Source: Planctomyces sp. SH-PL62 | GTDB taxonomy: Bacteria > Planctomycetota > Planctomycetia > Planctomycetales > Planctomycetaceae | Direction of reading: 5' to 3' | NCBI GenBank assembly: GCA_945905295.1 | Contig: CAMDPX010000014.1 | Coordinates: 1-54,694 of the forward strand | Length of the DNA: 54,694 bases | In this document: piece after piece, positions 2,326 to 43,200 of the stretch | How positions within the stretch are numbered: the first letter of the stretch is position 1 | How the letters are laid out: each line of letters starts with the position of its first letter | Translations under genes and position numbers: made by a program | Notes under the pieces: generated by a model | Databases searched by the model: none | Told to the model about the DNA's origin: nothing | The model's input: only the letters and a program-made list of their open reading frames with translations

Positions 2326-2369
2326 CACTACCGACGAAGATCGTTCCAAGCCAAGAAAGCCGTTGTGAA

Positions 2370-2846: not shown

Positions 2847-2909
2847 GCGGCGAGCGGCGAGGGGTGAGGGGCAAGAGGTCGAGGTCAACAACAGCTTTCC
2901 GAAACGCAA

Positions 2910-3603: not shown

Positions 3604-3621
3604 CAACGGACCAAGGACATT

Positions 3622-4959: not shown

Positions 4960-4999
4960 CCGTTGAACGTATCAAATCTGAAGAGTAGAGGTCGTCACC

Positions 5000-18489: not shown

Positions 18490-19425
18490 ATGCCGACGCT
18501 TTTCGTCGTGGATGATTCCGCCATGGACCGCAAGCTGGCGGGATCGGTGCTGGAGAAATTGGAGGATGCCAATGTTTGTTATTTCAGCAACGGCGTACTG
18601 GCTCTCGAGCAACTCCCGCTGTTGAGGCCCGATCTGGTTCTCAGCGACATTCAGATGCCGGACTTGGATGGCTGGCAGTTGATGAGAGAACTGCATCGTC
18701 GGCACCCAAGCTTGCCGGTGGTGCTGATGACGCACCAAGGCTGCGAGGATACGGCGATTCGAGCTCTGGAAGCCTCGGCCGCCGGTTACGTTCCGAAGCG
18801 GAGTTTGCTGCAAGACCTCGGCGGCACGGTCGAGCGAGTCCTCGCGAAAGCGTTCCACGAATGCCAGGCATCGCGTGTGATGCGGCGTGTCAGCCAGCAA
18901 GAAGCGACCTTCGTTCTGGAAAACGACGTCCATCTGCTCACCGCGCTGGCGACGCAACTGAGCGTGTCGGTGCAGAGTCTTTGGCAATGTGACGAAGTCC
19001 AAATCCTGCGGATCGGCATGGCCATCGAAGAAGCCCTGTTCAACGCTTGCCTTCACGGCAACCTGGAACTCTCGTCGTCTCTGCGTGATCAGGACGAGGA
19101 TTTGTACCAGCAACTCGCTCGCGAGCGGGCACAGCAGTCTCCGTTTGCTCAACGACGGATCAACGTGCAGTTTCAATGCGGACTGCGATCGTTCCAATGC
19201 ATCATCCGTGATGAAGGCTCGGGCTTCGATCCGATCTTGCTACCCAATCCGTTCTCCGAAGAATCACTGGCTCGGCCCAGTGGTCGCGGACTGACACTGA
19301 TTCGCTCCTTTATGGACGAGGTGCGTTTCAACGACCAAGGCAACGAGATCACGCTCTTCAAGCGCCGTCCGCCGCTGGCAGCGCGAGTCCACAACCGCGA
19401 TGAACTCACCTACGCCGGCCGTTGA
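18490..19425 (+). CDS. Receiver-HATPase fusion (RsbW-like), copy 1
   Basis: The predicted protein has 311 residues. Residues 1-120 form a receiver domain (VVDDSAMDRKLAG; phosphoacceptor D53 in LVLSDIQMPDLDGWQL; MTHQG; VPKRS). Residues about 150-300 are a serine-kinase-type GHKL ATPase: N box GMAIEEALFNACLHGNLEL, G1 RDEGSGFDP, G2 [15 protein letters not shown]. RsbW-type ATPases bind or phosphorylate anti-anti-sigma factors, so a phosphorelay input coupled to partner switching is plausible. A paralogue at 34557-35507 is encoded with a hybrid histidine kinase. AAAGGAG precedes the ATG. No STAS or sigma factor gene is adjacent. Confidence 0.85.
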   Translation: MPTLFVVDDSAMDRKLAGSVLEKLEDANVCYFSNGVLALEQLPLLRPDLVLSDIQMPDLDGWQLMRELHRRHPSLPVVLMTHQGCEDTAIRALEASAAGYVPKRSLLQDLGGTVERVLAKAFHECQASRVMRRVSQQEATFVLENDVHLLTALATQLSVSVQSLWQCDEVQILRIGMAIEEALFNACLHGNLELSSSLRDQDEDLYQQLARERAQQSPFAQRRINVQFQCGLRSFQCIIRDEGSGFDPILLPNPFSEESLARPSGRGLTLIRSFMDEVRFNDQGNEITLFKRRPPLAARVHNRDELTYAGR

Positions 19426-19534: not shown

Positions 19535-22500
19535 TCATTCTGTCGTCACCGGCTTCGCGGTCTTAGGTCTCGGAGCGACGCGGTTCTTCGGCTGCCAGTT
19601 TTCCAGATTCCAGAGGTGCAGCTTGTTTTCTTCTCCGAGCGTTGCCAGCACGCGACCGTCGGACGACAGAGCCAGTGCTTTCACGGGGCCGAGTTGAGCG
19701 GGGAAGATCGCCGCGTCTTTGTCGAGCCGCAGATTCCAGAGCGTGACTTGTCCCGTCTCATCGCCTTGGGCCAGCCAAGTTCCGTCGGCGGACCACGCAA
19801 CCGATTGGCGATCTTTGAGTCCGTTGTTCAACTCAACGGATCGCAGCAAGCGACCGTTCGAGGTGTCCACAATCCCCAATCCCTTCGAGTTGATCGCGGC
19901 CAACTGCGACCCTTTCCCACCGACGAACCACAGCGGCACGGGCGGCTGTGCGTCGTCGATAATCGGCTGAGTCGCTTTGGAATTGACTCCCGTTTCTTTC
20001 GTCCATTTCGCCCCTTTCTTCTGCCACAGCGTCAGCCGATAGTCGCCACTGCCGTAGGAACCATGCGTCAGCAGAGATCGTCCGTCCGAGGAAAATCGCA
20101 GTGTCGTCAGCCCGCGGTCGCGATTCTCGGATTGTGTCCCTTGTAGCCAGGGAGCCGAGTGCGGTTGCTCTTCGATCGTGGCCTGCACCGCCAGCGTCGT
20201 GGCATCCAAGATCAACAGCCGATGCAACTGCCGCTCGCGGATCGCGACCGCTAACGAAGTTCCGTCCGGTGCGAAAGCGATGGCGGTTGTCAGACCCTCA
20301 TACGCTTCGTGAGATTTGATTTCCGAAAGTGTCGCGGTCTCGAACAATCGCAACACCTTGGTTGCGGATTGGACGGAGCCGGCATAGCCGATCGCCAAGT
20401 GCCGACCATCGGGCGCGGTGGCGATCGCGCTGATGGATTCTGGTGCCAAGCCGCTCAGTGTTCGCGATTCGCCGGTTGGCAAGGAGAAGACTTGCCCGCT
20501 CGACGACAACACTTGATTGGTGGAATCCATAATCGCACAGGTGCCCACCGGGGATCGCAGGTCGTCCCAATGCCGCAACAACGCTTGCGTCGCGATGTCC
20601 CAAACCCACAGTTGCGACGCCGCCGAGTCAGCCGATTTGCGGCGCTGGTCGGCCAAGTCGTTGCCGACGGTCGATGTGGTTGCCGTCAGCGATTCGGCAT
20701 CCCCGTGAATCGACAACTGCACGGTGCGCGGTCCCATTCGGTTCTGCGACGCGGGTCCGGCGACGAATTGAAAACTGGTCGTCAGCGTCCCCAGCAGTTT
20801 CGGACGTTCGGTGCGTTCCTGCGACACGGGAATCGTCTTGAGTCGGCTGATTTGTTTCTTGAGGTCCGCCTTGAGGAAGTCGCTCGCCGCGCTCGCCAGT
20901 TGTTTCTCCAGCGCGACGACCTGCGCGGCCTTCGCCAATTCGCTCTCTTCGGCTGTCGGGTCAGTCGCTTTCAAGAGCGGTTGCCGAGCCGCTGCGCGAG
21001 CCTCGTGTGAAGCGGCGTTCCGCAACTCGGTCTGGGACAGAGCGGTCTCCGATCCGTCGCCGTTTTCTGTGCCGACAGGAATCGACTCACCGCCAGCGTT
21101 CAAGACTGCCGGTGGAGTGATGAATTGAAACGCTCGCTCGATTTCCGGTGGGGATGGGTCGTCATCTCCCGTGTTGCCACGCATGCGTGGCTTGATCCGA
21201 ACCACTCCGGCACGATCGCGAATGAAGAGCCGCTTGTCCCCCTCCAGAAAGCGCACTTCGACAACCACGTCCTTCGAGCCATCATGCTTTTCGACGATCT
21301 GTCCCGTTGCCAAATCCCACACGCGGACGAGTTTGTCTTTGCCACCCGTCGCCACAAAGTGACCATCCGAGGAAACCGCCACCGACAGCACGAGGTCCGG
21401 GTGCTCCAGGATGTTTTTCGGCTTCGACTCTTTCGTCGCGCCTTTCTGGACTGCGGCGGGATTGGTCTTGGTCGGCTTCGTCTCTATCGCGGAGACCTTT
21501 TGGGGATCGGCCGGGTTGGTCTTGGCTGGCTTCGTTTCGCTCTCGCCAACATCAGGTTCCGGAGCATCGGCCGACCACCACCGCACGAACTTGTCCAAGC
21601 AGGCGGCCGCCACGATCTTGCCGTCGGCCGAGAGGCCCACGTCAGTGATTTGATCGGGCGATTCGGACCACGTTCGCGTGACGGTCCCGGTCTTCGTGTC
21701 CCACAAACAAACGCGATGATCGCTGCCGCCGCTGGCGATCCAGAGGTCGTCGGCGGAAATCTCGAGGTCCGTGACGATTCCATCGTGCGCCGGCAGTTTG
21801 GCTCCCAGTTTGATGGCCAGCCGAGCGGCTGGCTCGCGCGCGGCGTCCTCCGATTGAGTGACCGCTGCGACCGAACAGATTCGCAGACTGCCGTCCGCAC
21901 CGCCGCAAAGAATCCATTGGCCCTGCCGATCGGCGGCCAAGGACCAAACTCCGCTTTGCTCGGTGTCGATACTGCCAAGCAATGCCTGAGCCGCACGTCG
22001 CGACTCGCGCGCAAAGCGGTCCAAACCGGCGACAGGTTCGATCGTCCACAATCGCAGCCAGCCAGCGTCCGCCGCACCGATGATCCACTGTCGAGCCGGA
22101 CCATAGACGAGTCCCGTCGTCAGGCCAGTCTTGCCAACGAACTCATGCGACAACTGCCCGGTGGGGACGTCGTGCCAACTTACTCGGCTCAGATTGGCCG
22201 CCGTCAGCACCGCGAGTCCATCCGCAGAGCCGGTCTGCCGTCGCTTCGCGATCAACCACTCACGCAGTTCCGGAGACAACGGCTTCCAAGCCACTTCCGG
22301 AGACTCTGCAACAGTCTCGGCGGTCTTGGCGGGAGCTGCCGGAGCGTTGCCATCGCGAGTCTGGCTCGGATTGGATTTGTCATCGGACTCCGACTTAGCG
22401 GCAATGGCCGTCGGATCCATCTTGGCGGAAGGTTGGCTGGCTGGAGAAACGGCCTTGGTATCCGCTTTGACCGCGTCCCTAGCGGATTCTGAAGGCTTCG

Positions 22501-22678
22501 TCGGGGCCTCCGAATTCGGGGCCGGGCCGGGATCTTTTTTGGCTAACTTCGGATCGATCGTTCGAGTCGGGCCAAAGTCCTGATTGCCGCCACCACAACC
22601 GCCAAGCAGGCAGATCGAGAGCAAGCTCAGTCTCAACCATCGCCTCACGAAACGCGCAAAAGTTTCAGAAGTCTCCAT
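19535..22678 (-). CDS. Large WD40-repeat lipoprotein
   Basis: The predicted protein has 1047 residues. The N-terminus LRLSLLSICLLGGCGGG is a lipoprotein signal with lipobox LGGC, so it is anchored in a membrane facing the periplasm or exterior. A Pro/Ala/Lys-rich linker (about 35-135) follows. WD40 blades then run from about 150 to 480 (SADDLWIASGGSDHRVCLWDTKTG; LVRVWDLATGQ). A helical, partly coiled-coil region is near 570-620 (LEKQLASAASDFLKADLKKQISRLK), and a second set of blades runs from about 690 to the end (LASHLWVWD-like; GQVTLWNLRLDK; KLHLWNLENW). Possibly a two-propeller scaffold. It is convergent with the receiver-ATPase gene and divergent from the kinase gene. Confidence 0.88.
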   Translation of the reverse strand: METSETFARFVRRWLRLSLLSICLLGGCGGGNQDFGPTRTIDPKLAKKDPGPAPNSEAPTKPSESARDAVKADTKAVSPASQPSAKMDPTAIAAKSESDDKSNPSQTRDGNAPAAPAKTAETVAESPEVAWKPLSPELREWLIAKRRQTGSADGLAVLTAANLSRVSWHDVPTGQLSHEFVGKTGLTTGLVYGPARQWIIGAADAGWLRLWTIEPVAGLDRFARESRRAAQALLGSIDTEQSGVWSLAADRQGQWILCGGADGSLRICSVAAVTQSEDAAREPAARLAIKLGAKLPAHDGIVTDLEISADDLWIASGGSDHRVCLWDTKTGTVTRTWSESPDQITDVGLSADGKIVAAACLDKFVRWWSADAPEPDVGESETKPAKTNPADPQKVSAIETKPTKTNPAAVQKGATKESKPKNILEHPDLVLSVAVSSDGHFVATGGKDKLVRVWDLATGQIVEKHDGSKDVVVEVRFLEGDKRLFIRDRAGVVRIKPRMRGNTGDDDPSPPEIERAFQFITPPAVLNAGGESIPVGTENGDGSETALSQTELRNAASHEARAAARQPLLKATDPTAEESELAKAAQVVALEKQLASAASDFLKADLKKQISRLKTIPVSQERTERPKLLGTLTTSFQFVAGPASQNRMGPRTVQLSIHGDAESLTATTSTVGNDLADQRRKSADSAASQLWVWDIATQALLRHWDDLRSPVGTCAIMDSTNQVLSSSGQVFSLPTGESRTLSGLAPESISAIATAPDGRHLAIGYAGSVQSATKVLRLFETATLSEIKSHEAYEGLTTAIAFAPDGTSLAVAIRERQLHRLLILDATTLAVQATIEEQPHSAPWLQGTQSENRDRGLTTLRFSSDGRSLLTHGSYGSGDYRLTLWQKKGAKWTKETGVNSKATQPIIDDAQPPVPLWFVGGKGSQLAAINSKGLGIVDTSNGRLLRSVELNNGLKDRQSVAWSADGTWLAQGDETGQVTLWNLRLDKDAAIFPAQLGPVKALALSSDGRVLATLGEENKLHLWNLENWQPKNRVAPRPKTAKPVTTE

Positions 22679-22945: not shown

Positions 22946-24448
22946 ATGACCGCGACCGCGACCGTCAACACACAGGGATTAGTGGGAGAGATCATTGGCA
23001 GCGGCCGTTACGACATGCGCGAACTGCTGGGCGGCGGCAGCATGGGGTATGTCTATCGAGCGTATGATCGGCGGCTGGAGACGGACGTCGTCGTCAAGAT
23101 TCCCCGGAGGCACAAGCTCGGTAATCCGGATTCACTGAAGCGGTTTCGCCAGGAATCCAAGTTCCTGGTGAAGCTCAATCATCCGCACGTCGTCAGCATT
23201 TTGGATGTCGGCGAACACGACGGAGTGCCGTTCTTCGTGATGCCCTTTATCAATGGAGGCAGTCTTCGCTCGCGGCAAAAGAATGAACTCGGCATTCAGA
23301 AACCGCTCAAGCCGGCCTCGTTGCGAAGTTGGTTGCGCGAGATCGCCAAGGCGCTGGACTTCATTCATTCTCAGGAGTGCATTCATCGCGACGTGAAGCC
23401 GGACAACATCCTGTTCGACGAACACGGTCATGCGTTTCTGAGCGACTTTGGACTGTCGAAAGTCGTACGCTCGGCCGAGACCGACGACCCCAGCCAGACA
23501 GCGGCCGGAGCAATTGTCGGCACGCCGCTGTTCACCGCGCCGGAATTGGTGCTGGGTGAGCCGATCGACGGGCGAGCCGATCAATACTCGTTGGCGTTGA
23601 CGGTTTATGACACTTTGGCTGGCACGAATCCGTTCTTGGGAGCGAGTTCGAGCGCCACTTTGGTTAATCAAACCGCGATCGACCCACCGCCATTGATGGA
23701 ATGGAATCCGAGCGTCAGCCACGAAGTTTGGCGAGTCGTCCGAAAGGGATTGGCCAAATGCCCCGAGGACCGTTTCCGTACGTGCGTCGCTTTCGCCGAC
23801 GCGGTTTTGGCGGCGTTGCCGGCGAGTGAATCCTCGCAGTCGTCCGCGACGCGCACCGGGCCGAAGAATTCGGGACGTCGCTCGTCAGCGACGAATCGGA
23901 TGGCCGAGACGTCGATCAGTTTGCGACTCGAGGACGGCGCGCCAGGTCGCGAATTGTCACGCAGCGCGATGTCGATGGTCCGTTCGCCATCGAACACCGT
24001 TTCGGCCACTCAGAAAACACAATATGTGGTCACTGCTCGGACGCCGATCGTCAAAGCCAAGACCAACTGTCCGGGCTGTGCGGCCAATCTCAACCTGCAG
24101 CCGGCGTTTGCAGGCAAGAAGGCGACTTGCCAGAAGTGCGGATGCCGATTGCTGATCTCGGCCGACTTCAGCGAAGTCCGCCAGTTCGAATTGGTCGCCG
24201 TCCGCAACGTCGCCGAGTCGTCCGCGACGAACAGTCCGTCGTCCACCGCGAATTCAGGTGAATTCGATCTGGTCTTGGGCCAAGTGGTCTTTGGTTGGAA
24301 GCTGAACCGCCAATGGGCACTGGGACTCGCAGGGCTGCTGATCCTGTTATTGTTGTTGCTTACGATGTATTTCACAGACAAAGCGTCGCAGAGTGAACGT
24401 GTTCGTTTGCGGGAGCAGTTCCGGGCGAGGACCATGGAAGGGGAGTAG
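22946..24448 (+). CDS. Membrane Ser/Thr protein kinase with zinc ribbon
   Basis: This 500-residue Hanks-type kinase has the G loop LLGGGSMGYVY (about 27-37), catalytic Lys K51 (VVVKIPR), HRDVKPDN (H147-N154), DFG (167-169), the activation segment ending GTPLFTAPE, and DQYSLALTVYDTLAG. A Ser-rich linker (about 290-365) follows. Next come a CPGC/CQKC zinc ribbon (C375, C378, C395, C398) and one transmembrane helix near 450-468 (LGLAGLLILLLLLLTMYF). The kinase and ribbon are therefore cytoplasmic with a short exterior tail. The next gene encodes tandem FHA domains, which bind phosphothreonine and may be its partner or substrate. Confidence 0.93.
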   Translation: MTATATVNTQGLVGEIIGSGRYDMRELLGGGSMGYVYRAYDRRLETDVVVKIPRRHKLGNPDSLKRFRQESKFLVKLNHPHVVSILDVGEHDGVPFFVMPFINGGSLRSRQKNELGIQKPLKPASLRSWLREIAKALDFIHSQECIHRDVKPDNILFDEHGHAFLSDFGLSKVVRSAETDDPSQTAAGAIVGTPLFTAPELVLGEPIDGRADQYSLALTVYDTLAGTNPFLGASSSATLVNQTAIDPPPLMEWNPSVSHEVWRVVRKGLAKCPEDRFRTCVAFADAVLAALPASESSQSSATRTGPKNSGRRSSATNRMAETSISLRLEDGAPGRELSRSAMSMVRSPSNTVSATQKTQYVVTARTPIVKAKTNCPGCAANLNLQPAFAGKKATCQKCGCRLLISADFSEVRQFELVAVRNVAESSATNSPSSTANSGEFDLVLGQVVFGWKLNRQWALGLAGLLILLLLLLTMYFTDKASQSERVRLREQFRARTMEGE

Positions 24449-24469: not shown

Positions 24470-24539
24470 AGCCGGAACGCGCTAGCGTCCGGTTCGGACA
24501 CACGACCAGCAACAAACCGGACGCTAGCGCGTTGCGGCT
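24470..24539. repeat. Palindromic repeat family B, copy 2
   Basis: Arms AGCCGGAACGCGCTAGCGTC and GACGCTAGCGCGTTGCGGCT, with one mismatch in the last block. It lies between the kinase stop and the FHA gene start (24570), so any shared transcript would carry this hairpin between the two genes. Confidence 0.85.
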
Positions 24540-24569: not shown

Positions 24570-26960
24570 GTGTTTGGTGAACTACGGCCAGTCGATGGCG
24601 GGATGCCGATTCTGCTGGAGAAACCGTCGATCACAGTCGGCCAGGATCGCACCTGCGACGTCGTGATCGAGCATCCGTCCGTGTCGGCCAATCACTGCCT
24701 GATGGAGTTTCGCGAGGGCCATTGGTTCATTGAAGACCTGGGCAGTCGCGGCGGAATCGGCGTCAATGGCGAGAAGGTCGAGAGTGCTTGGGTTCCCGCC
24801 TTGAGTGTGATCAATATCGGGAACATTGAGTTTGACCTGCAATACTCGTCCAGCCAGGCGGCCTCGGATAATCAGCGAGCCGTCTCACCGGAAATCCTGT
24901 CTAAGCTCGATCGGGCCATGAAGTTGGTCCAGCCGCATAAAGAGCGGCGGACTCAAGTGTGCGGCGATCAACCCGCACCGCCTGAGTTGCTCAAGACACC
25001 GCTGGGAGTGCTCAAGCCCGATCACGGCGGACACCCAATCCCGCTGCTGTATGACGAACTCTATCTGGGCCGCGATCCCGATGGTGATGTCGTCCTGCCT
25101 TATCTGGCGGTCGCCAAGACTCACTGCGTATTGAGGTTTCAGGACGGCTATTGGTTGGTGCGCGACCTCAACAACAATGGCATCAGCATCGACGGTCAGA
25201 CGGTCCAAGAAGGCTGGCTCAACCCCGGAGCCGTGCTCGGGGTGGCGACACATCGTTTTGAATTGGCCTATGCGACATCCGCCGGTGCGGCACCACCAGA
25301 ACTGGCCGTGCCGATCAACGAATTCGATGTGACGGACGAAGACTCGTCCGTCGAAGGCTATGTCGCGAGGCAAGCTTCCGAAACCGAAGAAGTGGAAGTC
25401 GATGAGCCAGTGCTCATCGAGAGCGAGGACGGTCACGTTTACAACGCTTCGCGCTTCGACATCGACGTCGAGCTGGATGCCTACAACGCCACGCTCACCG
25501 GAAGTGGAGTCCAATCCGGCGCAGCCAAGCGTCCGGACATCAGTCCCAGTCCACCATTTGTTGTTGACGAACCTCTCCAAGCGTTCGATGTTATGCTGGC
25601 CTCGATGGATGAATCGCTGCCAGCGATCGACGACCAACCTTCGCAGATTACCGAGGCGATTGCGGTCAAGCTGCCGATTTCGGAAGCGAAAGTCGTTGAA
25701 TCACCGGGGGGCGAGCCGAAAGCTGTCAAATCTCCCACGCGCGACAAAACGACTCCGTCCTCGCGAAAACCCCGGACCCAAAGCAGCCCGATCACGAGGC
25801 CTGCGGCGGTCGAGTCTCCACTGCCAAAGCCATCGCCGATCAAACCACTGGTCGTCACGAGGCAACAGGTCAGCGTCGTGGAACTGAAGCACGAACGAAT
25901 CGTCCAATTCCTGAAGGATCGCGAGTTCGACGGTCTGTTATTGTCACGGCCTGCGAGCATCGCCTGGTACACCGGTGGAGCCGATGTTCCGCGCGGTCTC
26001 TCCGGCGAAACGGCCGCGGCTTTGCTCATCACTCCAGTGGGCGGAACGCTGTTGGCTCGCAAGGCCGACCGCGATTTGTTGCTCAATCACGCCACTGCAG
26101 ATGTTGTGCTGCAGCATCGTGAGTGCGTCTGGCCAACAGAGGCACGCGGTCTATTCGCCGATTGGCTCGGAACGAAAAAAATCGCCTGCGATCAACCGTT
26201 CGAGTCATGTGACGATGTGTCGTCGGAGGTCTCGGCTCTGCGATTGCCACTGCGGCCGCAGGAAATCGAGAACTTGCGGAAGCTGGGAATTCGGCTGGCT
26301 CGCACCGTCGAACGAGCGGCGCGGGAATTCCAACGCGGCGACACCGAAGCGCACATCGCAGGTGATGTCGCGTTCCGATTGATCCGGCACGAAGTCCTCC
26401 CGGTGCAGATTCAAGTCTGGGGCGATGGTCGCGGCCGGAGTTGTCAGAACTGGAGCTATGGACGCGAGTCGGTGGACCACGACTGCACGATCTCCGTCGT
26501 CGCGCGACGGTACGGATTGCACGTCGCGGTGTCGCGGACCGTCAGCTTTGGTGTTCCCTCCAAGGAACTCCGTTGGACATTCCCGGACATGCTCATGGCT
26601 CACGCCACCGCCATGACCAGCTCACGCGACCAAACGGAATTGTCAGCCGTGTGGACCCAGGTCGAGAGTGTGTGCGAGACGCTCGGCGAAGGTGATGACT
26701 GGCGTGCGACCGATCCCGGTTGCGTGACCGGCTATGAACTGTGCGAGGCTCCGATCTCTGCGAAGAACTCGCTGCGGTTGCGGGCCGGCATGCCTGTCAT
26801 TTGGCGATCACTGATCGGCCCCGCGCGAGCCGTCGATACGATTCTGGTTCGCGAAGCGGACAGCAAAGTGATCACGCAAACCGGCGAGTGGCCTCAGATT
26901 GGTGTAGCCATCAACAACGAACCGTTCTTCGTCCAGACCGTGCTGCAACGAACCGCTTGA
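24570..26960 (+). CDS. FHA-FHA protein fused to degenerate M24 peptidase fold
   Basis: The predicted protein has 796 residues. FHA domain 1 spans about 15-95 (ITVGQDRTCDVVIEHPSVSANHCLMEF ... DLGSRGGIGVNGEKV). FHA 2 spans about 145-230 (LYLGRDPDGDVVLPYLAVAKTHCVLRF ... DLNNNGISIDGQTV). An acidic and then Pro/Ser/Lys-rich linker reaches about 430. The rest has a creatinase N-like domain (VVELKHERIVQFLKDREFDGLLLSRPASIAWYTGGAD) and a pita-bread M24 fold (LRPQEIENLRKLGIRLARTVERAAREFQRGDTEAHIA). Positions that should hold the two Asp metal ligands and the His are not conserved, so it is probably a pseudoenzyme. GTG 24570 fits the AGAGGGAG site better than TTG 24564. Confidence 0.85.
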   Translation: MFGELRPVDGGMPILLEKPSITVGQDRTCDVVIEHPSVSANHCLMEFREGHWFIEDLGSRGGIGVNGEKVESAWVPALSVINIGNIEFDLQYSSSQAASDNQRAVSPEILSKLDRAMKLVQPHKERRTQVCGDQPAPPELLKTPLGVLKPDHGGHPIPLLYDELYLGRDPDGDVVLPYLAVAKTHCVLRFQDGYWLVRDLNNNGISIDGQTVQEGWLNPGAVLGVATHRFELAYATSAGAAPPELAVPINEFDVTDEDSSVEGYVARQASETEEVEVDEPVLIESEDGHVYNASRFDIDVELDAYNATLTGSGVQSGAAKRPDISPSPPFVVDEPLQAFDVMLASMDESLPAIDDQPSQITEAIAVKLPISEAKVVESPGGEPKAVKSPTRDKTTPSSRKPRTQSSPITRPAAVESPLPKPSPIKPLVVTRQQVSVVELKHERIVQFLKDREFDGLLLSRPASIAWYTGGADVPRGLSGETAAALLITPVGGTLLARKADRDLLLNHATADVVLQHRECVWPTEARGLFADWLGTKKIACDQPFESCDDVSSEVSALRLPLRPQEIENLRKLGIRLARTVERAAREFQRGDTEAHIAGDVAFRLIRHEVLPVQIQVWGDGRGRSCQNWSYGRESVDHDCTISVVARRYGLHVAVSRTVSFGVPSKELRWTFPDMLMAHATAMTSSRDQTELSAVWTQVESVCETLGEGDDWRATDPGCVTGYELCEAPISAKNSLRLRAGMPVIWRSLIGPARAVDTILVREADSKVITQTGEWPQIGVAINNEPFFVQTVLQRTA

Positions 26961-27486: not shown

Positions 27487-30400
27487 TTACTTCACGTCTA
27501 ACCGTTTGATGGGTTTTCCTGATTCGAGGCTGAAAATTACTACTTCGGTACTTTCCGAGCTACCAGCGGCAAACTGCGTCCCATCGGAGTTCATGGCAAA
27601 CGCTTCGAGGGGCGAGATTCTGGTTTTGCAGACCACGGAGGACTCCCCGGATTCCAGATCCCACACAAAAATATCGCCCCCCGCGTCGGCTGCCAGCACT
27701 CGTTTACCATCGGGGAGGAATCGCACTTCAATCGGAATGATTGGGTGTTCCAATTCGACGGCGTTCACTTTCAACGATCCCGATTTCGCCGCAATGTCGA
27801 AGAGAATCAATCCTCCATTTTGCTCCGCACCAACCAGCCAGTTTTCTGCGGAATTGAACGAGAATTTGACGAACGTTTTTGCGTTTTGTACGCGGGGAAT
27901 TTCTCGAATACGTTCGCCGGACTCAACATTCCAGACCACCACATCTCCGGTCGTATTGGAAGCTGCCAGCAGACTTCCTTTGGGACTGACGGTCAGCGAT
28001 TGCTTGAAGCGCGGATCCAGTTTCAATTGACCGGCCTTTCGGCCAGCCTTTAGATCCCAGACGATGACGTTGCCTTCTCGGTCCATCGTGGCCGCGAATT
28101 CTCCACTTGGCGTCGTGTAGAGTGTGACGATTGGTTGTCGATGCTCCTTCCATCCAGTGGACGGGTCGGGGCGTGCCGACAAGTTCCACGGAATCAAAGA
28201 GTCTCCCAAAACCAGGACTAATCCGTCTCTCGCTCGAAATCTGGGAGACTTTCCGCCTTCTTTGGAGAATCGCTGTGACACGCTCTCGCCATTGACGTCC
28301 CAGACTTCCAGCATGCCCATCGTTCGTTCGGCGACCAGCGTGCTGCCGTCGGGACTCATCGTCAGCTCGGCCACTTTGCCTCGCACCAAAACTCGCGTCG
28401 TGGGACCGACCCAGAGCGTGTACCCAGCGGTCCCAAGCAGGCAACTTAGCAAAAGTCCGGCCAAGCCACTCAGCGCTACCTTGCGCGTCGGCATGAACAA
28501 GAACACCCACTTGGGAATTAGCGCCCCGACGTAATTGCGAGATTTGGCACGGCGGACGATCTCTTTAACCGTTTTGTGCTCGTTGACCAAGTTGCTCAGC
28601 TCGTCGATCACTTTCGACGCACCGCTGCGGACCATTGGGTCCGAATCTTCGAGCATCACCGCCAACGCTTTCAGGGTTTTGGAATCTTTGAATTTCGCGA
28701 CGGCGTTGATTGCGTGATAACGCACCTCAGGCGATTCATCCTTAAGCATCGCCATCAAAGCCGCGAGCGTGTTGCGGTCCTGAATCAATCCCAGAGCGAT
28801 GACCGCCTGGCAGCGGATCGACAACTCCTCTCGCAAGGCTTCCTCAAGAAATGGACAAGCGTCGCGAGATTTCAGTTCACCCAGTGACCGCGCTGCCGTG
28901 GCACGAACCTCGCGAGAAGGATCCTGACGCAACACTCCGCCAAGCACCGGCACCAGCGAGGGATCCCCGGACTGGCCGAGCGTCTCCACGACGCGCCGAC
29001 GCAAGGCTGGCTGTGACGCCTCCAGTAGAGAGATCAGCGCAGGTGTTGCCGCGGGAGACCTCAGCTTCTTCAACGCAAGCACGGTCTTGAACGTCACTCC
29101 ATCGTGTTTCGACTGTAGCAGTGGGAGCAATCCTGTCGCGGCTGCGGTATCTCCGAGTTTTCCAACGGATTCGACGACCGCCTCCACGAAAGGGGCGTCC
29201 ATTGCGACCAGCAATTCCCAGCCTTGCAAAACCTTCAACAGATCGGGGATCGCTTTGGAATCACCCAATTCGCCCAGTGCGTTCGCCGCATAACTTCGCA
29301 CGGTGGCATCTTCGTCTTGCAGCGCACCAAGCAACGGACGCAGCGCGCGTGGATCCACAAGTCGCACCAGCCCGGACGCAGCGTTCGCTCGCACAGTCGC
29401 GTCAGAATCCTTCAATAAGTAAATCAATTCTGGCACGGAGTTTGGTTCTGCGATCCGTGCCAATGCCTCGGCGATCTGCGCCCGAATCAGAGGGGACACA
29501 TGGTTCAGGCGTGCGACCAGCGGCGGGACAGCCTGCTTGTCGCCAATTCGGCCCAGCACCACGATGGAGTCCGAGATCAATTCGGTCTCATTAGACTCCA
29601 GTAAACCGAGCAATTCTTGCAAGACTCGCGAACCAATTGTCACAAGCGTGTTATTGACCAGCGGCTTCCACTGCGGACGCTCCTGACCATACCGCAAGAG
29701 CGGCAAGACGACCCGGCGATCACCGATGGACCTCAATGCCGCAAAAACGGCTCGGACAACATCCGCGTCGCGATCCAGCAGTCCGCGCAGTACGGTGCCC
29801 ACTGCCGAGGGAGCCCCCAATTTGCCAAATGCCGTCAGGGCACCTTCGCGGATCATGGCCAGTGTGTCTTCGGCATGTTCGTTCAGAATTTCCAAGACTT
29901 CCGGGTCTTGCGATTCTCCCAGTTCAATCAGCGACAGTCTCCGTGCGACATTTTCTTTGTCGTTGAGGACATTGCCAGTTTCCAGTTGCTTGCGAATTTT
30001 CCGCAACTTGGAGGAAGCGAGTCTGCCGGAGGGAGTCGGCACGGCATCGTTCGGAACGGGCAGTTTCGCCGCCGCTTCAATAACCCGCTGAAGGTTTTGG
30101 TCGTCGGACGTTCGTCGGATCACGGCGGACTCGGTCGATTGATTCTCGGACGACGACGGTCGATGCGCAGTGGGCACGACTGATGGTTGGTCTCGAGCCG
30201 GTGCAGAATGACTTCCGCTGCTCGCGGAGTTGTCCGGCGAGTTCGGCACCGCGACGGCTGCTGAGCACTTTGGGCACTTCACACGCTTGCCCCGCAGGGC
30301 GACGCTCACTCGAATGGACGCGCCACACGCACAAGCGACACGCAATTTGTCGCCGCTTGGTGGGCCCGCCGTCCCGCGGTCCAACGTTCCGGTCTTCGTG

Positions 30401-30534
30401 TCTGATTCGAATTTGTCCGGGACCGACCCAGACACAGTGGGCCGCACCAGTGATTGGTTGCAGGATTGGCAACGCGTCATGTCTGGCGATACTTCCGCGA
30501 GACAGCGGGGACAAATAGCCGTCGTCGTGGGCAT
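27487..30534 (-). CDS. Zinc-ribbon/HEAT/TM/WD40 protein
   Basis: The predicted protein has 1015 residues. Two zinc ribbons open it (CPRCLAEVSPDMTRCQSC at about 8-25; CACGASIRV...KCPKC near 68-89). HEAT/PBS-lyase-type repeats follow from about 185 to 680 (for example DPEVLEILNEHAEDTLAMIREGALTAFGKLG and SPEVRYHAINAVAKFKDSKTLKALAVML). One transmembrane helix near 705-725 (VALSGLAGLLLSCLLGTAGYTLWV) and a C-terminal WD40 propeller (GMLEVWDVNGE; NVIVWDLKAGR; DVVVWNVESGE; DIFVWDLESGE) complete it. This gives a cytoplasmic HEAT scaffold and an external propeller joined across the membrane. The role is unknown; the company of kinase and FHA genes suggests signalling. Confidence 0.9.
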   Translation of the reverse strand: MPTTTAICPRCLAEVSPDMTRCQSCNQSLVRPTVSGSVPDKFESDTKTGTLDRGTAGPPSGDKLRVACACGASIRVSVALRGKRVKCPKCSAAVAVPNSPDNSASSGSHSAPARDQPSVVPTAHRPSSSENQSTESAVIRRTSDDQNLQRVIEAAAKLPVPNDAVPTPSGRLASSKLRKIRKQLETGNVLNDKENVARRLSLIELGESQDPEVLEILNEHAEDTLAMIREGALTAFGKLGAPSAVGTVLRGLLDRDADVVRAVFAALRSIGDRRVVLPLLRYGQERPQWKPLVNNTLVTIGSRVLQELLGLLESNETELISDSIVVLGRIGDKQAVPPLVARLNHVSPLIRAQIAEALARIAEPNSVPELIYLLKDSDATVRANAASGLVRLVDPRALRPLLGALQDEDATVRSYAANALGELGDSKAIPDLLKVLQGWELLVAMDAPFVEAVVESVGKLGDTAAATGLLPLLQSKHDGVTFKTVLALKKLRSPAATPALISLLEASQPALRRRVVETLGQSGDPSLVPVLGGVLRQDPSREVRATAARSLGELKSRDACPFLEEALREELSIRCQAVIALGLIQDRNTLAALMAMLKDESPEVRYHAINAVAKFKDSKTLKALAVMLEDSDPMVRSGASKVIDELSNLVNEHKTVKEIVRRAKSRNYVGALIPKWVFLFMPTRKVALSGLAGLLLSCLLGTAGYTLWVGPTTRVLVRGKVAELTMSPDGSTLVAERTMGMLEVWDVNGESVSQRFSKEGGKSPRFRARDGLVLVLGDSLIPWNLSARPDPSTGWKEHRQPIVTLYTTPSGEFAATMDREGNVIVWDLKAGRKAGQLKLDPRFKQSLTVSPKGSLLAASNTTGDVVVWNVESGERIREIPRVQNAKTFVKFSFNSAENWLVGAEQNGGLILFDIAAKSGSLKVNAVELEHPIIPIEVRFLPDGKRVLAADAGGDIFVWDLESGESSVVCKTRISPLEAFAMNSDGTQFAAGSSESTEVVIFSLESGKPIKRLDVK

Positions 30535-30751: not shown

Positions 30752-32050
30752 TTACTCGAATTTGCCCTTCGTCAAACCTTTGAAATTCAAGATCGTGCCG
30801 GTGTACACCTCAAAGGGGTTAATTTCGCAGAGCCCATCGGTGTAACCGTCTGTTTGACTCGAACCACCGGTCACAGGCAATCCGGGGTTGAAGAAGGTAT
30901 CACCGTTGAGATCCCTCAACTCCTTCACACTGCCGTCTGCCATGAGAATGTTTGCCTTCCCGCCATGCACGGCCTGCCAGTCGCGAGTATCCTGAAGGAT
31001 CAATTTACCTGCCAGAGTGCCCGTTCCTCCCGTGCCAGCGTAATTGACTTCATTCGTCGTCGTGATCAGGTCGCCGATGGATGGAAACTTCGTTGGGAAA
31101 TACTGGCTGGCCGAATCAGTCACAGTGACGAGTGTGACCCTGCCGCCTGTGCCTCCGGCGGGATCCCAAAAGGCTGGACCATCGTTGGCAGCTTCACCCA
31201 AACGGGCACCGGCCACCAACTCGCTGTTGATTGTCGTCACTAAGACCGCTTCGTCGATGTCACCAGCAGCGGAGTCTCCCAGCAGAGGGATATTGCTCGC
31301 CGGGACGTCGGACGCCTCAATCATCCGCTGAGTGAGCGGCCCGGTCGTATTATTGACTTCTTTGAAGCCTGTAATACTGGTGGTACTTCCGGTGAAAGGG
31401 TTTGGATAGAGAGTCGCCCCACCGATGACGTTCAGTACCGGCGTAGTTGCGGTGCTTGTCGCGAACTTCACACCACTGCGCGACAGGTGCCAGCTTGCGG
31501 AATAGTTGGTATTCATCCCCAACTCATTCACCATCTTTTGCGTCGCCAATTTAAGCGTAGAAGTTGTATCCTTCGCAGTGATGCTTGTTCCATCAAATGC
31601 GAAAAGATCGGACACATTATACTTTGACGGATCCGGATTACACGCCAAGCGATTACCGTTCGAGGTGTTCTTGTCGCCATTGGCGTCGTTCAGTTTTTCA
31701 GTGCCACGGACGGGGTTGGTGGGGCATCTCATCTGATCCGGTTTGCCAGCCTTCAAGCTCACAACGTCGGCGACCCACCCATTCTTGTCCATCAAACCGT
31801 CGCGGTACATATCCCATTGCCCCGTCGACAAACGCGTAACGGGATCTTTGGTCGCGAAGACATGCATCGCGATACCAATCTGGCGGAGGTTGTTCTTGCA
31901 CTGAGTATTACGGGCCGCCTCGCGAGCCTGCTGGATGGCTGGCAACAGCAAGGCAATCAAAATGGCGATGATCGAGATCACCACCAGCAGCTCGATCAAC
32001 GTGAAACCACGCCGAGCCGCCACCAACGACATTCGCTTCGAGATCTTCAT
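30752..32050 (-). CDS. DUF1559 pseudopilin-like protein
   Basis: The 432-residue protein starts [59 protein letters not shown]. This is the type II/IV prepilin cleavage motif (G-FTLIE) with the hydrophobic helix and the planctomycete DUF1559 extension. Near the C-terminus is the H-x9-DG signature ([12 protein letters not shown]). DUF1559 proteins are among the largest families in planctomycetes and are presumably processed by a prepilin peptidase and exported; their exact role is unsettled. The ATG at 32050 has AAGGAG 7 bases upstream, so an in-frame ATG at 32119 is unlikely. Confidence 0.93.
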
Positions 32051-32516
32051 CTGGACTCTCCTTGAGGAAAAACTACTCGGCCGAGCGGACGACCGGATTC
32101 GGTCACACATTCCGCTCAACCCCCTGAACCTGGTCGATTCCCTTCATCACTTCGCGATTCCTTCGCTGCTGACTTCTGGCCTGCGCCGCTCGCTAGTTCA
32201 TCGCGAGCGGCCAGCATTCACCGGCACAACTGTTGAGAGCCGGCTGGAGATTTCGGACGGGACGGTACGAGTCACGCTTGAGGCACTGATGAACCAACGG
32301 TGAAGACTTCGCGAAGAGGCGGGACTCGTGATCCGTGTCGTTCGCAACCTTGTTGTTCGCAACTCTGCGAACTCGACTCTCAACGGATCGCAAGCTATCC
32401 GGCCGAGATGAAGCCTTGACGAAGAGCCGATGAATTCACCAAATGGTTTGACAGTTCTCGACAGAGCCGCGTAGACATCCCCGCGAAAGCTAACCCCATT
32501 CAACAGGATTCATGCC
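32051..32516. other. Divergent intergenic region DUF1559/arsC
   Basis: This 466-base gap has no supportable gene. It must hold the promoters of the two divergent genes. A sigma-70-like pair for arsC is listed separately. Short inverted runs occur (AGTTCATCGCGAGCGGCC and TTCGCAACCTTGTTGTTCGCAA), but none forms a clear operator, and no ArsR-type gene is present. Confidence 0.4.
32448..32477 (+). promoter_or_regulatory. Possible sigma-70 promoter of arsC
   Basis: TTGACA at 32448-32453 and TAGACA at 32472-32477 are separated by 18 bases and lie about 40 bases before the arsC ATG. The -35 is a consensus match and the -10 differs at two positions. This is a pattern match only. Confidence 0.35.
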
Positions 32517-34556: not shown

Positions 34557-35507
34557 CTACAAAACGGTGCTCATTTCCGGCAGGACGTCCATGTCCGATT
34601 CGAGCAACAGGTTGCTGGGCAGCGTGGTCTTGTGCTTGATCAACAGAATTTCGTTGCCACGCTCGTTGAACTGCACCTCGTCCATAAACGAGCGGATCAA
34701 CATCAAACCACGGCCGGTCGTTCGCTCCAGCGAGTCTTCCGAAAATGGGCTGGGGAGTTGCTCGGGATTGAAACCCTTTCCCTCGTCGCGAATGACGCAT
34801 TGAAACATGGTTGGCGTGCATTGCGCATCGACAAAGATACGGCGATCGGCATACGGCGATTGAGTCACTCGCTGGCGGCTGAGTTGCTGGAACAGATTCT
34901 CGTCCGCCTCGCGCAGTTCCGAATCGAGTTCCAGATTGCCATGCAGATAGGCGTTGACCAGCGCCTCTTCCAGAGCCATTCCGATGCGGAGAACTTGAAC
35001 CGGATCGCACCGCCAGATCGTGTTGACGGAGTCTCGCAAGTGCGTCGCCAGCGACAGCAGCAATGCCAGCTCGTTCTCGACCACGAACGACGAGTCCTGA
35101 TGATGCAGTCGCTGCATGACGCGCGACGCCTGCCGGTCGATGTACGTGATGGAAAGCACTCGTTCGACGGTCGCCGCGAGGTCTTGCAGCAGTCGTCGCT
35201 TTGGGACATACCCGGCCGCGCCCGCCTCCAACGCCTGGCCAGCCATGTCTTCACTGCCACGCGACGTCATCAGCACCACCGGAATCCGCGGATACTTGCG
35301 ACGGACCTCCAGCACCAGTTGCAAGCCGTCGAGGCCCGGCATTTGGATGTCCGTGACCATGACGTCGGGACTCTCGATCGACAGTTGCTCGAGAGCGGCC
35401 AGTCCGTCGCCGGCATAAACCACGGAGGCTCCTTCGAGCTTCTCCAGCACGGTGCCCGCCAGACGGCGGTCCACCGGCGAATCATCAACGATTAAGAACG
35501 TAGGCAT
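34557..35507 (-). CDS. Receiver-HATPase fusion (RsbW-like), copy 2
   Basis: This 316-residue paralogue of the 18490-19425 protein has the same layout: receiver domain 1-120 ([15 protein letters not shown]53 in [27 protein letters not shown]) and GHKL ATPase about 150-300 ([52 protein letters not shown]). The start overlaps the end of the hybrid kinase gene by 16 bases, with AGGA before the ATG, so expression is coupled. The kinase HPt domain is the natural phosphodonor for this receiver. The ATPase output would then act on an unlinked anti-anti-sigma-type partner; that last point is inference. Confidence 0.88.
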
Positions 35508-37762
35508 GATGGTTCCTGAACAACGGGGGGACTTGGCCGGGACAAAGCGGCTTGCAGACGCACGGCCTCGAATTGCAGTTGGAAGATCGCCGTGGCGAGC
35601 GAATTCCAATCGTTCTCTTTCGCCAGCCGCTCGACGAGATAGGCGGCTTCGAAGGTGGGTTTGCCGCCGACGTTGTCGGCCGAGTTCTTCAACGTGTGGG
35701 CCGCACGCATCAGCCGATCCGGATCTCGTTCTTTCAACGAACGCTCGATCTCTGCGAGCAGATCGGGGACAAGCTGCCGCACGATCTCAGAGATTTCGCC
35801 GAACAACGCCTCGTCGCGGTTCATCCGTTCGAGGGCTGATTCACGTTCCGGCAGCGACTCGCCGGAATCCGTTCGCGGTAAAAAGTCCGCCACAGGCCCC
35901 TCAGTGGGGGCGGAGTGACCTGTGGCGGGGCCATTGCCACCGCCGGGAGGACGGTGGCAGGCGGGAATTTGCGGCTCACGTTGACCGACTAATTCATCGG
36001 GAGGCCAAGTCGGTTTAAGTTCGTCGTCGATCGACTCGGCCACGGTGTGCTGGGGGCCGTGTCCTCGCAACTGTCCGTCGAGCACGCGCCGCAGTTCGGC
36101 GCGCTGAATCGGCTTGATCGCGTAGTCGTCGCAGCCAGCGTTGAGGCAGCGTTCTTTGTCTTCGCTCATCGCGTTGGCCGTGAGTGCGACGATCGGCTCT
36201 TGATAGCCTTTCGATCGCAGCAACCGAGTGGCCGAGTAGCCGTCGAGGACCGGCATCTGCATGTCCATCAACACGACATCGAACGGCTGGCCGCGACGGA
36301 ATTCTTTCCACGCCAAGTCGGCCGCCATCTCACCGTTGTGAGCGACCGTGACTTCAGCTCCCCAGCGTTGCAGTAGGACGCTGATGAGTCGCTGATTATC
36401 CGGGCTGTCCTCCGCCAACAGGATGCGGCAGGGCGTCTCAAAGAGAGCGGACTCTTGCTTGCGCGAGGGTTCTTCCTGACACACCGCTTCGCTCGGATTC
36501 TCAATCCAGGGCGTGTCGTTCAAAAAGCCGGTGTCGATGACAACTGCGAATTGACTACCGTGCCCGAACTCACTCGCGACCGTCACCTCACCTCCCAGCA
36601 TCCGCGCCAGCCGGCGGCTGATCGACAGCCCCAATCCAGTGCCGCCGTACTTGCGCGTGGTCGAACCATCGACCTGCGTGAACGGACTGAAGAGCTTGTC
36701 CATTTGCTCGCGCGACAGCCCGATGCCCGTGTCGGCCACGACGAATCGCAGTTGCGGCCGATCACTCCGCCGATCCAACACTTCGACTTGCAGCTCCACA
36801 TGACCGCTCGACGTGAACTTGATCGCGTTGCCAATCAGGTTGATCAGAATCTGTCGCAAACGCGTCGGGTCGGTTCGCACGAAAGCGGGCAGGGGGCTGT
36901 CGTACCGCACTCGCAACGGCAGTTGTTTCGCGTCCGCACGGACGCGCATGACAGACAACACATCGGCCACGATTTGCACGGGCGAAATCGGCAAGCATTC
37001 CACTTCCAGCTTACCCGCCTCGATCTTCGAGAGATCCAGAATGTCGTTGATGACTTCCAGGAGATGTTCACCGTTCCGCAGGATCGTCTTCAATGCCGAG
37101 CGTCGTTCGGTCTCGTCGTTGCCGCCGTCCAGCAAGTTCTCCGCGAAGCCCAGGATGGCGGTCAGCGGCGTGCGGATTTCATGGCTCATGTTCGCCAGGA
37201 ACTCGCTCTTCGCGGCATTCGCGGCTTCAGCCGTCTCCTTCTGTTGTTGAATCGTGTCGTTCGCCTGACCCAGCAAATGCGTTTGGGCGAGCAACAACGT
37301 ATGCGTATCCAACAGTGTGAATCGGTCGTTCGGTTCCATCACGACCAGCGGCTCGTAGATCATGCCGCTCGGCCGATTGAGCGCGAACCGAGTCGCTTCC
37401 GCCACCTCGCACTCCGCCGGCAGCACCCAAGTCTCATCGGCCAGTTGATTGAGCAAGTCGAGGATTGGCCGTTTGAGAAACAACTCCAAGCCAAACGGTT
37501 GACTGAGCCGTTCTTGGAACTTGCCTCGCGAGATGACCCCGATCAATTCACCGTCATCGACGACAAGCACACCGGGCAAGTCCGCATGAGTCTCAAACGC
37601 ACGCGCCACGACCGACGAACGATCGGTCGGAGCAAGTTGCATGTCCTGTCTCGGAAGCTGAACCAGCGTTGTTGGCGAATCCTCGTGGCCGATGCTGGCG
37701 GCAGCGGTTCTAACACCGGTTGTCTTTCCGACGTGCGGCAATCTCATTGAAGCGATCATCAA
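35492..37762 (-). CDS. Hybrid histidine kinase (CBS-like, HisKA, HATPase, REC, HPt)
   Basis: The predicted protein has 756 residues. The N-terminal part (about 40-160) resembles paired CBS domains ([27 protein letters not shown]), followed by a coiled linker. HisKA has H194 in MSHEIRTPL. The ATPase has [17 protein letters not shown] and [10 protein letters not shown]. The receiver (about 445-560) has D500 in [13 protein letters not shown] and K550. The HPt has H689 in [14 protein letters not shown]. No transmembrane segment is seen, so the kinase senses cytoplasmic signals, perhaps nucleotides through the CBS-like region. The linker between receiver and HPt (about 600-625) is encoded by palindromic DNA. 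Phosphate would pass H194-D500-H689 to the receiver-ATPase encoded next. Confidence 0.92.
35887..35960. repeat. Palindromic insert in the kinase REC-HPt linker
   Basis: CGCCACAGG (35888-35896) pairs with CCTGTGGCG (35919-35927), and TGCCACCG (35935-35942) pairs with CGGTGGCA (35952-35959). The two adjacent hairpins encode a Gly/Pro/His-rich stretch ([22 protein letters not shown]-like, minus strand) in a flexible linker of the hybrid kinase. Confidence 0.65.
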
Positions 37763-40286: not shown

Positions 40287-43200
40287 TCAGAATCCTCCGC
40301 CGATTTGCAGGCTCTGCGACAACAATTCGGCGGCCGTCAGCAGCGACAGGCCTTGAACCGGAGTCAGCACTCCAGCAGAGGTCAGGGCTTGAACCTCATT
40401 CTTGAAGGCTCCGATCATGTTGTAGGCCACCTTCGTCTTGCCCTTATCGAGTTGATCGAGCGCGTGCTCCAGTTTCTTCAACAGCGAGTTGGTCTGTCCC
40501 TTGTTGAGTGCCCCTTGGGAGTTCAGGTTTTGAACCGCGGCCTGCAACTGGATGATCTGCTCCGATGGCGACAGCACATGAATCGAAACCGAATCAGAGT
40601 CAGTGAGCGCTCCCCCGGAGCCGGTGTTGCCCAGATCGTCGGCGACGATCGAGAGCGTGTCCGTGCCGTGGAAGTTGAGGTTGCCGAGGTAGGTTACTCC
40701 CGCAGCCAGCGTGGCATTCACCGCCGCGATCGGTCCCTGAAGCACGACCGCTCCGGTGCCGTTGTTGAGGACTTGAGCCGCGACCAGCCCACCAAGGATG
40801 TTGGTCGGAACGGTCAGCTTGCCCGAGCCAACCGACAGAGTGACCTGCATCACGCCGGTCCCTTCGTTGACATCGACGTCGGTCACCGCGATGCCGGTGA
40901 CGGTGACGCCGAGATCCTCGACGGTCGTCTGGAGGCCGGGGACCGTCAGCACTGGCGCATCGTTGACCGCATCCACCGTGATGTTGACCGTCGTCGTGGA
41001 AGTGCCTCCCTTACCGTCCGTGATGGTGTAGGTGAAGCTGTCACTGCCATTGAAGTTGAATGCTGGCGTGTAGGTGAAGCTGCCATTGCCGTTGTTTGCC
41101 AGTGTGCCATGACCGACTGCGGTGGTGCTGATGATCGTTCGCGAATCCCCGTTGGGATCCGAGTCGTTTGTCAGGACGTTGAACGTGACCGCAGTCTCTT
41201 CCGTGGTGCTCACATTGTCGGTGACAGCGACCGGTGGAGCATTATTGATCGTCCCCGGCGAACCGATCTCATTCGCGTCCGTCAGAGCAATGAAGGCTCC
41301 ATTGATGCTGGCAACGCTCAGTTGCGAGATGGCGGCGATGTTCAAGCCGGCCGCGTTGTCAAAGGTCGCGAACGAGGGGCCTGCGGGAGATGCTCCGAAG
41401 GTCACGCCGGCTTTCAGCGTGCCGGTGCTGGTGTAGAGATTGACGGCGTCGCCGCCAGTGCTCAGCCCGACGCCTCCGCCGGTGTAGTTTCCAATCTGAA
41501 GGCCCGCCGGGGCGTAAGCGCTGAACCAAGTGGAGCGGAAAGCGGCCGACTTGCCCGCGAGATCATTCGTTTCGAGGAAGATCACCGACTCACCGGGCGC
41601 GATGCTCGTGATGCCGTTCAGGGCGACCGACGCAGCGAAGGAACCCGAGCTGTCGTCCATCTTCCAACCGGTGATGTCGATCGCGAAGGCGGTGGAGTTC
41701 GTGACCTCAAACCAATCGGCGGCGACGGGGCTGTTGCCGCTCGACCACGGTGCCACTTCGGAGACGAACAGTTTGCCGACGGTACCGGGCGAGCCAATCT
41801 CATTCACGTCGTTCACGGCAACGAGGGCACCGTTGACACCCACCGCGCTCAATTGCGAGACGACGGTGTTGTTCAGCGCGGCCGCGTTGTTGAAGGTTCG
41901 GAATGTGACCGTGGGAGACACGCCAAACGTCACATTGGCCTGCAAGACGCCGGCGCTGTTGAAGAGGTTGACGGCGTCGCCGCCAGTACTCAGCCCGACC
42001 CCTCCGCCACTGTAGCTGCCAATCTGAAGACCCGCTGGACCGCTCCCGCCGAACCACGTATTCAGGAAGGCCGTTCGAGCGGCGGTGAGGTTGGCGGTCT
42101 CCACGAAGATCACCGACTCGCCGGGAGCGATGCTGGTGACGCCATTCAGAGTCACCGCTGCGGCGAAGGTGTTCGAGTTGTCGTCCATCTTCCAGCCAGT
42201 GAGATTCACGGCGCTGTTGCCGGTGTTCGTGATCTCAAACCAATCGGCACCAATGGGGCTGTTGCCGCTGGACCACGGAGCCACCTCGGAGATGAACAGA
42301 GACGGGTGAGAAGGGTCTTCATTGATCACATCGGTGACCGCGAGTGAATAGGCGGCGGTCGCATCCGGCGTGGTTCCAACGGTCAGGTCATTGACCTCCA
42401 CGGTGACGCTGTAGCTGGACTTGGTTTCGAAATCGAGATTCGTCCCCGCCTTGAGATACAGCCCAGTGCTGTCCACCTCGAAGAAGAGGGCGTCCGTTCC
42501 GGAGACGCTCAAGTTGTTCGTTCCAAGTCCGTCATCGGTGACGATGACGTCCGCCACCTTGATGCGTGTGACGGTGCTAGTGTTCTCGACGATCGAACTG
42601 ACCTGATTGGTCAGCGTGAGAGCCGTGGGAGCTTGGTTCGGGACAGAGGACGGTGCATAGACCCAAAGCTGCGCGTGATCGAAATCTCCGCCGCCGTTCT
42701 CGCTGACGACGTACAAAAAGCCGTTGCCGTCCATCGTCAGACCTTCGTGCTGCTGGGCCGGAACGGACAACGGATTACCGGGATCGGAGACGATCGTCAG
42801 TGAACTGAAAACGTTTCCAAACCGATCAACGTTGACGATCTTCCCCTCTTCCTGGCTGAGCAGCAGCAGGTTGCTGAAATCGGCACGCCCGGTCAGCGGT
42901 GACAGGTTCGAGAGAGCGAACACATCCGCCAAGTCCAGCAGGTTGACCAGGGCCGGATCGAACAGGTTGGTCGAGTTCACGCTCGTGGGCGAACCGTTGG
43001 TCGCGGTCCCCGCATTGAAGTCGATACCCGTTTGGAAGACCCCTTGCGGCGCAGTCTCCTTGACGGCGATGAAGCCGCTCGTCAGTGGGTCGTAGGAGAT
43101 CCCTTCAATACCGATGTTGGGGACGAACGTGCCGAGATCAACAGTGAGTACGTCGCCTCGCGTGAGCGTCGTGCCGGAAACGTAGGTCAACAAGCTGACC

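Follow-up and report, generated by a model that had tools for sequence, protein, structure and literature searches.

The window, by which we mean the whole 54,694-nucleotide stretch of DNA analyzed here, harbors a plus-strand gene for a protein in which two FHA domains are joined, via a linker, to a metal-less domain of the M24 peptidase type. The reading frame begins with a GTG at 24570, preceded by a Shine-Dalgarno-like GAGGGAG, and terminates with a stop codon at 26958-26960. The gene, which we refer to as FHA-M24, and its neighbors are arranged as follows.

19535-22678, minus strand: WD40 protein, divergent from the kinase
22946-24448, plus strand: Ser/Thr kinase with a CxxC...CxxC zinc ribbon and one C-terminal transmembrane (TM) segment (motifs, Pfam)
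24570-26960, plus strand: FHA-FHA-linker-pseudo-M24 protein, 796 amino acids, GTG start (open reading frame, Pfam, Shine-Dalgarno-like stretch)
24570-24857, plus strand: FHA1, residues 1-96, with Arg to Gln and Asn to Gly changes in the pocket (VGQDRTCDVVIEHPSVSANHC...SRGGIGVNG) (Pfam, model)
24996-25289, plus strand: FHA2, residues 143-240, with the pocket Ser changed to Ala and Arg and Asn present (LGRDPDGDVVLPYLAVAKTHC...NNNGISIDG) (Pfam)
25314-25859, plus strand: linker, residues 249-430, rich in Ser, Pro, and Thr toward its end and little conserved (identity, dN/dS)
25860-26957, plus strand: metal-less pita-bread domain, residues 431-796, made of a creatinase N-lobe and an M24 C-lobe (Pfam, AlphaFold2)
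27487-30534, minus strand: HEAT-repeat/TM/WD40 protein, convergent neighbor, found at the same locus in genomes G006, G007, G054, and G010
30752-32119, minus strand: DUF1559 pilin-like protein (N_methyl), also conserved at the locus

Pfam matches FHA twice (E 8e-27), Creatinase_N at residues 441-541 (E 2e-4), and Peptidase_M24 at residues 567-741 (E 1e-5), all above the gathering score. Together with the AlphaFold2 model and its structural matches, these domains bear out the original prediction of tandem FHA domains on an M24-type fold. Full-text searches, with most of the subscription literature outside their scope, gave no paper in which FHA is combined with M24, creatinase, or a pseudoenzyme, and the status of the architecture as undescribed is accordingly provisional.

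The kinase gene ends 121 bp upstream of the FHA-M24 gene on the same strand and its catalytic motifs (VVVK, HRDVKPDN, DFG, and APE) are intact, in agreement with the kinase neighbor noted earlier. This linkage is retained in the other readable intact loci, both within the genus and beyond it. In G054, a member of a distant genus, the DUF1559, HEAT/WD40, FHA-M24, and kinase genes follow one another in this order on a single strand, separated by short gaps, with 43% identity for the kinase and about 30% for the HEAT/WD40 gene. In G007 the kinase ends at one contig edge and the FHA-M24 gene starts at that of a second contig, which is consistent with adjacency, and in G006 the fused gene lies 42 bp from the upstream end of its contig, placing the kinase position outside the sequence. 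In G008 (L042), the cluster kinase is separated from the FHA gene by two further kinase genes, 2024-3856 and 3853-5112, both on the minus strand; one of them bears its own N-terminal FHA domain with GR and VSRLH. Related kinases in other genomes often adjoin WD40 genes (L149, L159, and L160). Relatives of the HEAT/WD40 protein also occur in the congeners G002 and G011, where no fused gene was found, and this protein is therefore not an exclusive partner.

Several other elements of the window may be mentioned. The cluster is bracketed by genes for REC-HATPase_c_2 (RsbW-like) proteins, at 18490-19422 (plus strand) and 34557-35606 (minus strand). A dispersed motif, GCTAGCGTCCGGTT, occurs at 19496, 24481, 24515, and 38325, and the copies at 24481 and 24515 are inverted to form a hairpin between the kinase and FHA-M24 genes; the motif was not seen in the sibling loci checked. 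The minus-strand gene at 40287-44204 encodes a large protein that combines three lamin-tail domains with one SdiA-regulated domain and with domains of the bacterial Ig/cadherin type.

The pita-bread domain and its metal site

Residues 431-796 were modeled with AlphaFold2 from an alignment of 36 rows, giving a pLDDT of 91.9 and a pTM of 0.90, and the model was compared with known structures using Foldseek and VIA-align 2. The matches comprise prolidases, aminopeptidase P, creatinase, ectoine hydrolase, DddP, and Spt16-N, with Z scores of 28-33 over approximately 315-340 residues; specifically, the model matches prolidase 5cnx with a Z of 32.7, creatinase 1chm with 31.8, Spt16-N 5ce6 with 29.3, and E. 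coli AMPP 1m35 with 28.6. The superposition on aminopeptidase P and Spt16-type folds that had been proposed as a check thus found the M24 fold present, and the creatinase/aminopeptidase-P-type pita-bread fold of this region is settled as far as prediction goes. Prolidase and aminopeptidase P (M24B) have in common with it both the fold and the order of Creatinase_N followed by M24, with family profile E values of 1e-19 to 3e-20. They differ in that the fused branch is devoid of all five metal ligands and of the substrate His.

The metal site was assessed against Pyrococcus prolidase 1pv9, in which the ligands are D209, D220, H284, E313, and E327. In the FHA-M24 protein, D220 is replaced by Ala, H284 by Cys, and E327 by Val, while D209 becomes Ser or Val according to the alignment used and the counterpart of E313 is missing, in a gap that depends on the alignment. 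None of the five D, D, H, E, E ligands is therefore in place after alignment, so that the loss, first proposed for the two Asp and the His, extends to the whole site. The substrate-site His (H192 in 1pv9) is replaced by Asn. An alignment artefact as the source of the ligand loss was ruled out, since phmmer against 1pv9, a MAFFT alignment of 97 rows, and the fold all agree that there is no D/D/H/E/E set.

The tandem FHA domains

The phosphothreonine (pThr) pocket of FHA domains involves the Arg of a GR motif, the Ser of VSRxH, and the Asn that precedes an NG-type turn. In all six fused or formerly fused proteins, the Arg of FHA1 is replaced by Gln, Asn, or Ser and the Asn by Gly, Asp, or Thr. 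FHA2 in the fused proteins retains the Arg and Asn, with the Ser changed to Ala and one residue deleted before the Asn, and the full pocket is complete in neither domain of the FHA-M24 protein. FHA1 is degenerate also in three standalone tandem-FHA proteins (G014, G041, and G046), and its weakening is thus a recurrent trend.

The individual FHA domains are modeled with confidence (blocks mostly 84-96), and their mutual arrangement is uncertain (pTM 0.53). The structural search made with this tandem model covered FHA1, with FHA2 being assigned by sequence. Among the matches listed for FHA1 by VIA are EmbR (2fez, Z 17.4), GarA (7rj3, Z 17.1), and OdhI (Z about 17).

Because both FHA domains miss pocket residues, simple phosphothreonine reading by the tandem is doubtful. 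The phosphothreonine binding that was originally proposed is accordingly weakened, with an FHA1 that has lost Arg and Asn and an FHA2 that has lost Ser weighing against it and the Arg and Asn of FHA2 still in its favor. From these retained residues, phosphopeptide binding by FHA2 is possible and, as such, counts against the scaffold role that we favor below. A genuine pThr-dependent adaptor, in which the autophosphorylated kinase or a substrate is bound by FHA2, or by FHA1 as well, and an effector by the pita-bread domain, strikes us as unlikely. Beyond the pocket residues of FHA2, it can draw on the intact motifs of the neighboring kinase and on the fact that EmbR, GarA, and OdhI, the nearest listed folds of FHA1, are mycobacterial and corynebacterial kinase partners. 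It has to contend with the pocket losses, including the one-residue deletion in FHA2, that run through all of the fused proteins, and with the contrasting case of a standalone tandem-FHA relative, G017, in which Arg, Ser, and Asn are all present in both domains.

The closest parallel for such a tandem is EssC of type VII secretion, which has N-terminal twin FHA domains that are likewise missing the pThr-recognition residues and are joined to a larger protein (PMC4925161). EssC differs in being an ATPase with TM helices, and its FHA domains are not known to retain Arg and Asn in the manner of FHA2. It is absent among the 50 matches listed for the tandem-FHA model, an absence that is not evidence against the resemblance. 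As to where the FHA half came from, the standalone tandem-FHA genes of five genomes adjoin REC-HATPase_c_2 regulators, which suggests derivation from a partner-switching-type regulatory setting.

Distribution, constraint, and role of the fused protein

A search for the same fusion, also proposed with the original prediction, found it to be rare. Within the 170 genomes of the family, the full FHA-FHA-M24 architecture is found only in this genome (G000), G006, G054, and, split by a stop codon, G007, with a further copy in G008 cut by a contig end and a decayed copy in G010. A widespread fusion is thereby ruled out. A tally of 99 of 99 genomes includes generic FHA matches and so does not measure how common the pita-bread family is, and families f4, f5, f7, and f9 are matched at the FHA level only. 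The long frames L037 (1044 amino acids), L044, L046, and L047 show no Pfam domain N-terminal to their M24 part.

Constraint was estimated as dN/dS (NG86/YN00) against four congeneric sequences, giving within-genus values, rough because dS is near saturation in several pairs, of 0.03-0.13 for FHA1 and 0.09-0.20 for FHA2; the pita-bread domain stands at 0.15-0.20 and the linker, where identity is 23-39%, at about 0.4-1.0. The contrast between domains and linker is robust and is the dependable part of this result. The low values place every folded domain under purifying selection and show that the gene is kept, and they rule out a pseudogene. The gene is nonetheless not essential, given the rarity of the fusion and its decay in G010, where large internal deletions affect the kinase, FHA-M24, and WD40 genes at one locus (L041 / L075) and reflect either gene decay or a join introduced in assembly. 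In G007, the FHA tandem is separated from the linker-M24 part by an in-frame TAA with an ATG directly after it (L003:898-906, and the same in L106), and the two halves could therefore be made as coupled proteins. This patchy distribution, the deletions in G010, and the in-frame stop in G007 are what might be expected of a vestigial gene on its way out, a reading that we regard as very improbable in view of the low dN/dS in all three folded domains, the intact 796-residue frame, and the same architecture in G054 at around 31% identity.

We favor, with moderate confidence, the view that the FHA-M24 protein is a catalytically dead but conserved scaffold of a membrane Ser/Thr-kinase module. A scaffold is preferred to a classic phosphate reader because the FHA domains have also lost key residues. 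The pita-bread fold dimerizes in prolidases and aminopeptidases P. By analogy with Spt16-N and PID-5, the pita-bread domain would serve as a body for dimerization and protein docking. FHA1 would dock a partner independently of phosphorylation, as in EssC, and FHA2 would do so in a weakly phosphorylation-dependent manner, through which some partial phosphate dependence may persist. The assembly might then hold the neighboring kinase and the HEAT/WD40 protein together or present a substrate to the kinase; a dimeric body with four FHA modules near a membrane kinase would concentrate or order the kinase, its substrate, and the HEAT/WD40 protein. Of the signaling adaptor originally envisaged, the architecture, the fold, the loss of metal, and the kinase neighbor all stand, whereas the FHA pocket losses tell against the reading of phosphothreonine.

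Among the nearest known systems is PID-5 of C. elegans, in which eTudor domains are fused to an aminopeptidase-P-related pseudo-domain and for which a role based on (hetero)dimerization has been proposed (PMC10377022). As in the FHA-M24 protein, reader-type domains are joined to a pita-bread domain that has lost metal ligands, a combination that is thus already known. PID-5 is, however, eukaryotic, has eTudor in place of FHA, retains a single His and a single Glu among the ligands, with which it may bind one Zn, and is thought to pair with an active APP-1 (PMC10377022). A second comparison is with Spt16-N of FACT, which matches the model with a Z of 28-29 and is a non-catalytic pita-bread domain for protein binding that may contribute to histone binding (PMC4741192). 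Spt16 differs as a histone chaperone with other fusion partners and in an unrelated pathway. The FHA-M24 protein provides a bacterial case of the Spt16/PID-5 theme, in which a peptidase fold is put to non-catalytic use and coupled to domains of the reader type.

Ancestry of the metal loss

When 96 relatives (27 parent-type, 65 planctomycete single-domain, and 4 fused proteins) were aligned with 1pv9, an intact metal site was found in none of them. D209, D220, H284, and E313 are each present in 0 of the 96, and E327 only in a 27-protein group defined by an RH/HHQGG/NP/KxED set. This group encompasses proteins of planctomycetes from other classes, Diplocloster, a Thermotogota MAG, and Halosimplex, as well as plasmid-borne members from Pantoea, Thermus, Haloprofundus, and Gloeothece. 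It has an invariant His at 1pv9 position 192, preceded by Arg in 26 of 27, and is also invariant in HHQGG, a further Arg, NP, Lys, and Glu-Asp. In the 65 single-domain proteins the His is found in 51, HHQ is mostly changed to A-D/E-Q, and the Glu is gone with the Asp mostly present. The four fused proteins have QN, PN, QN, and RR for RH, TDP, TLP, TDP, and VEP for HHQ, and RS, QS, RS, and QL for NP, with the Glu of ED changed to Val and the Asp present. Their homology to the parent family is clear, and, with the set incomplete, their membership in the presumed enzyme family is doubtful.

On these alignments, the loss of metal predates the fusion by far and is ancestral to a much wider bacterial and archaeal family; it is therefore not a feature of the fusion. 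By the same comparison, the fused branch afterwards lost most of the replacement polar set. The fused clade has support of 99/93 within a 100/100 group that also contains standalone planctomycete proteins, and both this branching and the absence of ligands place the FHA-M24 protein in a ligand-free planctomycete pita-bread subfamily. The fusion joins a tandem-FHA protein to a duplicate of a metal-ligand-free planctomycete pita-bread protein; the branches are long (L035, 1.22), and one or two fusion events therefore both fit the tree. The single-domain proteins (e.g., G000:C16, locus L031) are direct relatives that likewise have no metal ligands; they are without FHA and, unlike the fused proteins, most retain the RH motif. 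Intermediates thus survive with a full alternative polar site (parent), a partial one (single-domain), and almost none (fusion).

Creatinase demonstrates that a pita-bread fold can catalyze without a metal. That the FHA-M24 protein is itself a metal-independent enzyme in this manner gains something from the similarity of its model to creatinase and from the parent family, with its invariant polar set and its placement in sugar operons. We consider it highly improbable, as most of that set (RH, HHQ, NP, and Glu to Val) is gone from the fused branch, including most of the residues that the planctomycete standalone copies retain, and so is the His aligned with prolidase H192, which we take to correspond to creatinase H232.

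The proteins of the parent family on four plasmids that are annotated "M24 family metallopeptidase," L185 (Pantoea), L186 (Thermus), L187 (Haloprofundus), and L188 (Gloeothece), and their unannotated relatives (L089-L105 and L128-L134) have the invariant RH/HHQGG/NP/KxED set in common and are missing four of the five M24 ligands. In NCBIfam the parent proteins belong to no family and give only weak, sub-cutoff PepQ/PRK09795 matches. Many proteins so annotated in Thermus, Pantoea, haloarchaea, and planctomycetes cannot be ordinary M24 metalloenzymes, and, to judge from their residues and, on three plasmids, from the sugar-metabolism genes around them, those with the RH/HHQGG/NP/KxED set are likely misannotated metal-independent enzymes. 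A broader history is offered tentatively, as one that we would not yet expect to hold in full: the bacterial and archaeal "metallopeptidase" family would really be metal-independent enzymes of sugar catabolism, of which one planctomycete branch lost its site stepwise, joined a tandem-FHA protein whose own phosphate pocket was being lost, and took on the role of a scaffold dedicated to a membrane Ser/Thr kinase. The more interesting lead may lie in the deeper metal-less family, the one found in sugar operons.

The parent genes are found amid sugar-metabolism genes on three plasmids, with the order xylA-xylB-M24-Gfo/Idh-SDR in Thermus and GMC oxidoreductase-M24-SDR in Pantoea, and with the gene near arabinofuranosidases in Haloprofundus. 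At L057, L059, L060, and other standalone planctomycete loci, the pita-bread gene is divergently oriented to a conserved neighbor, which encodes about 187 amino acids with no Pfam match and is followed in some cases by an NAD-dependent epimerase.
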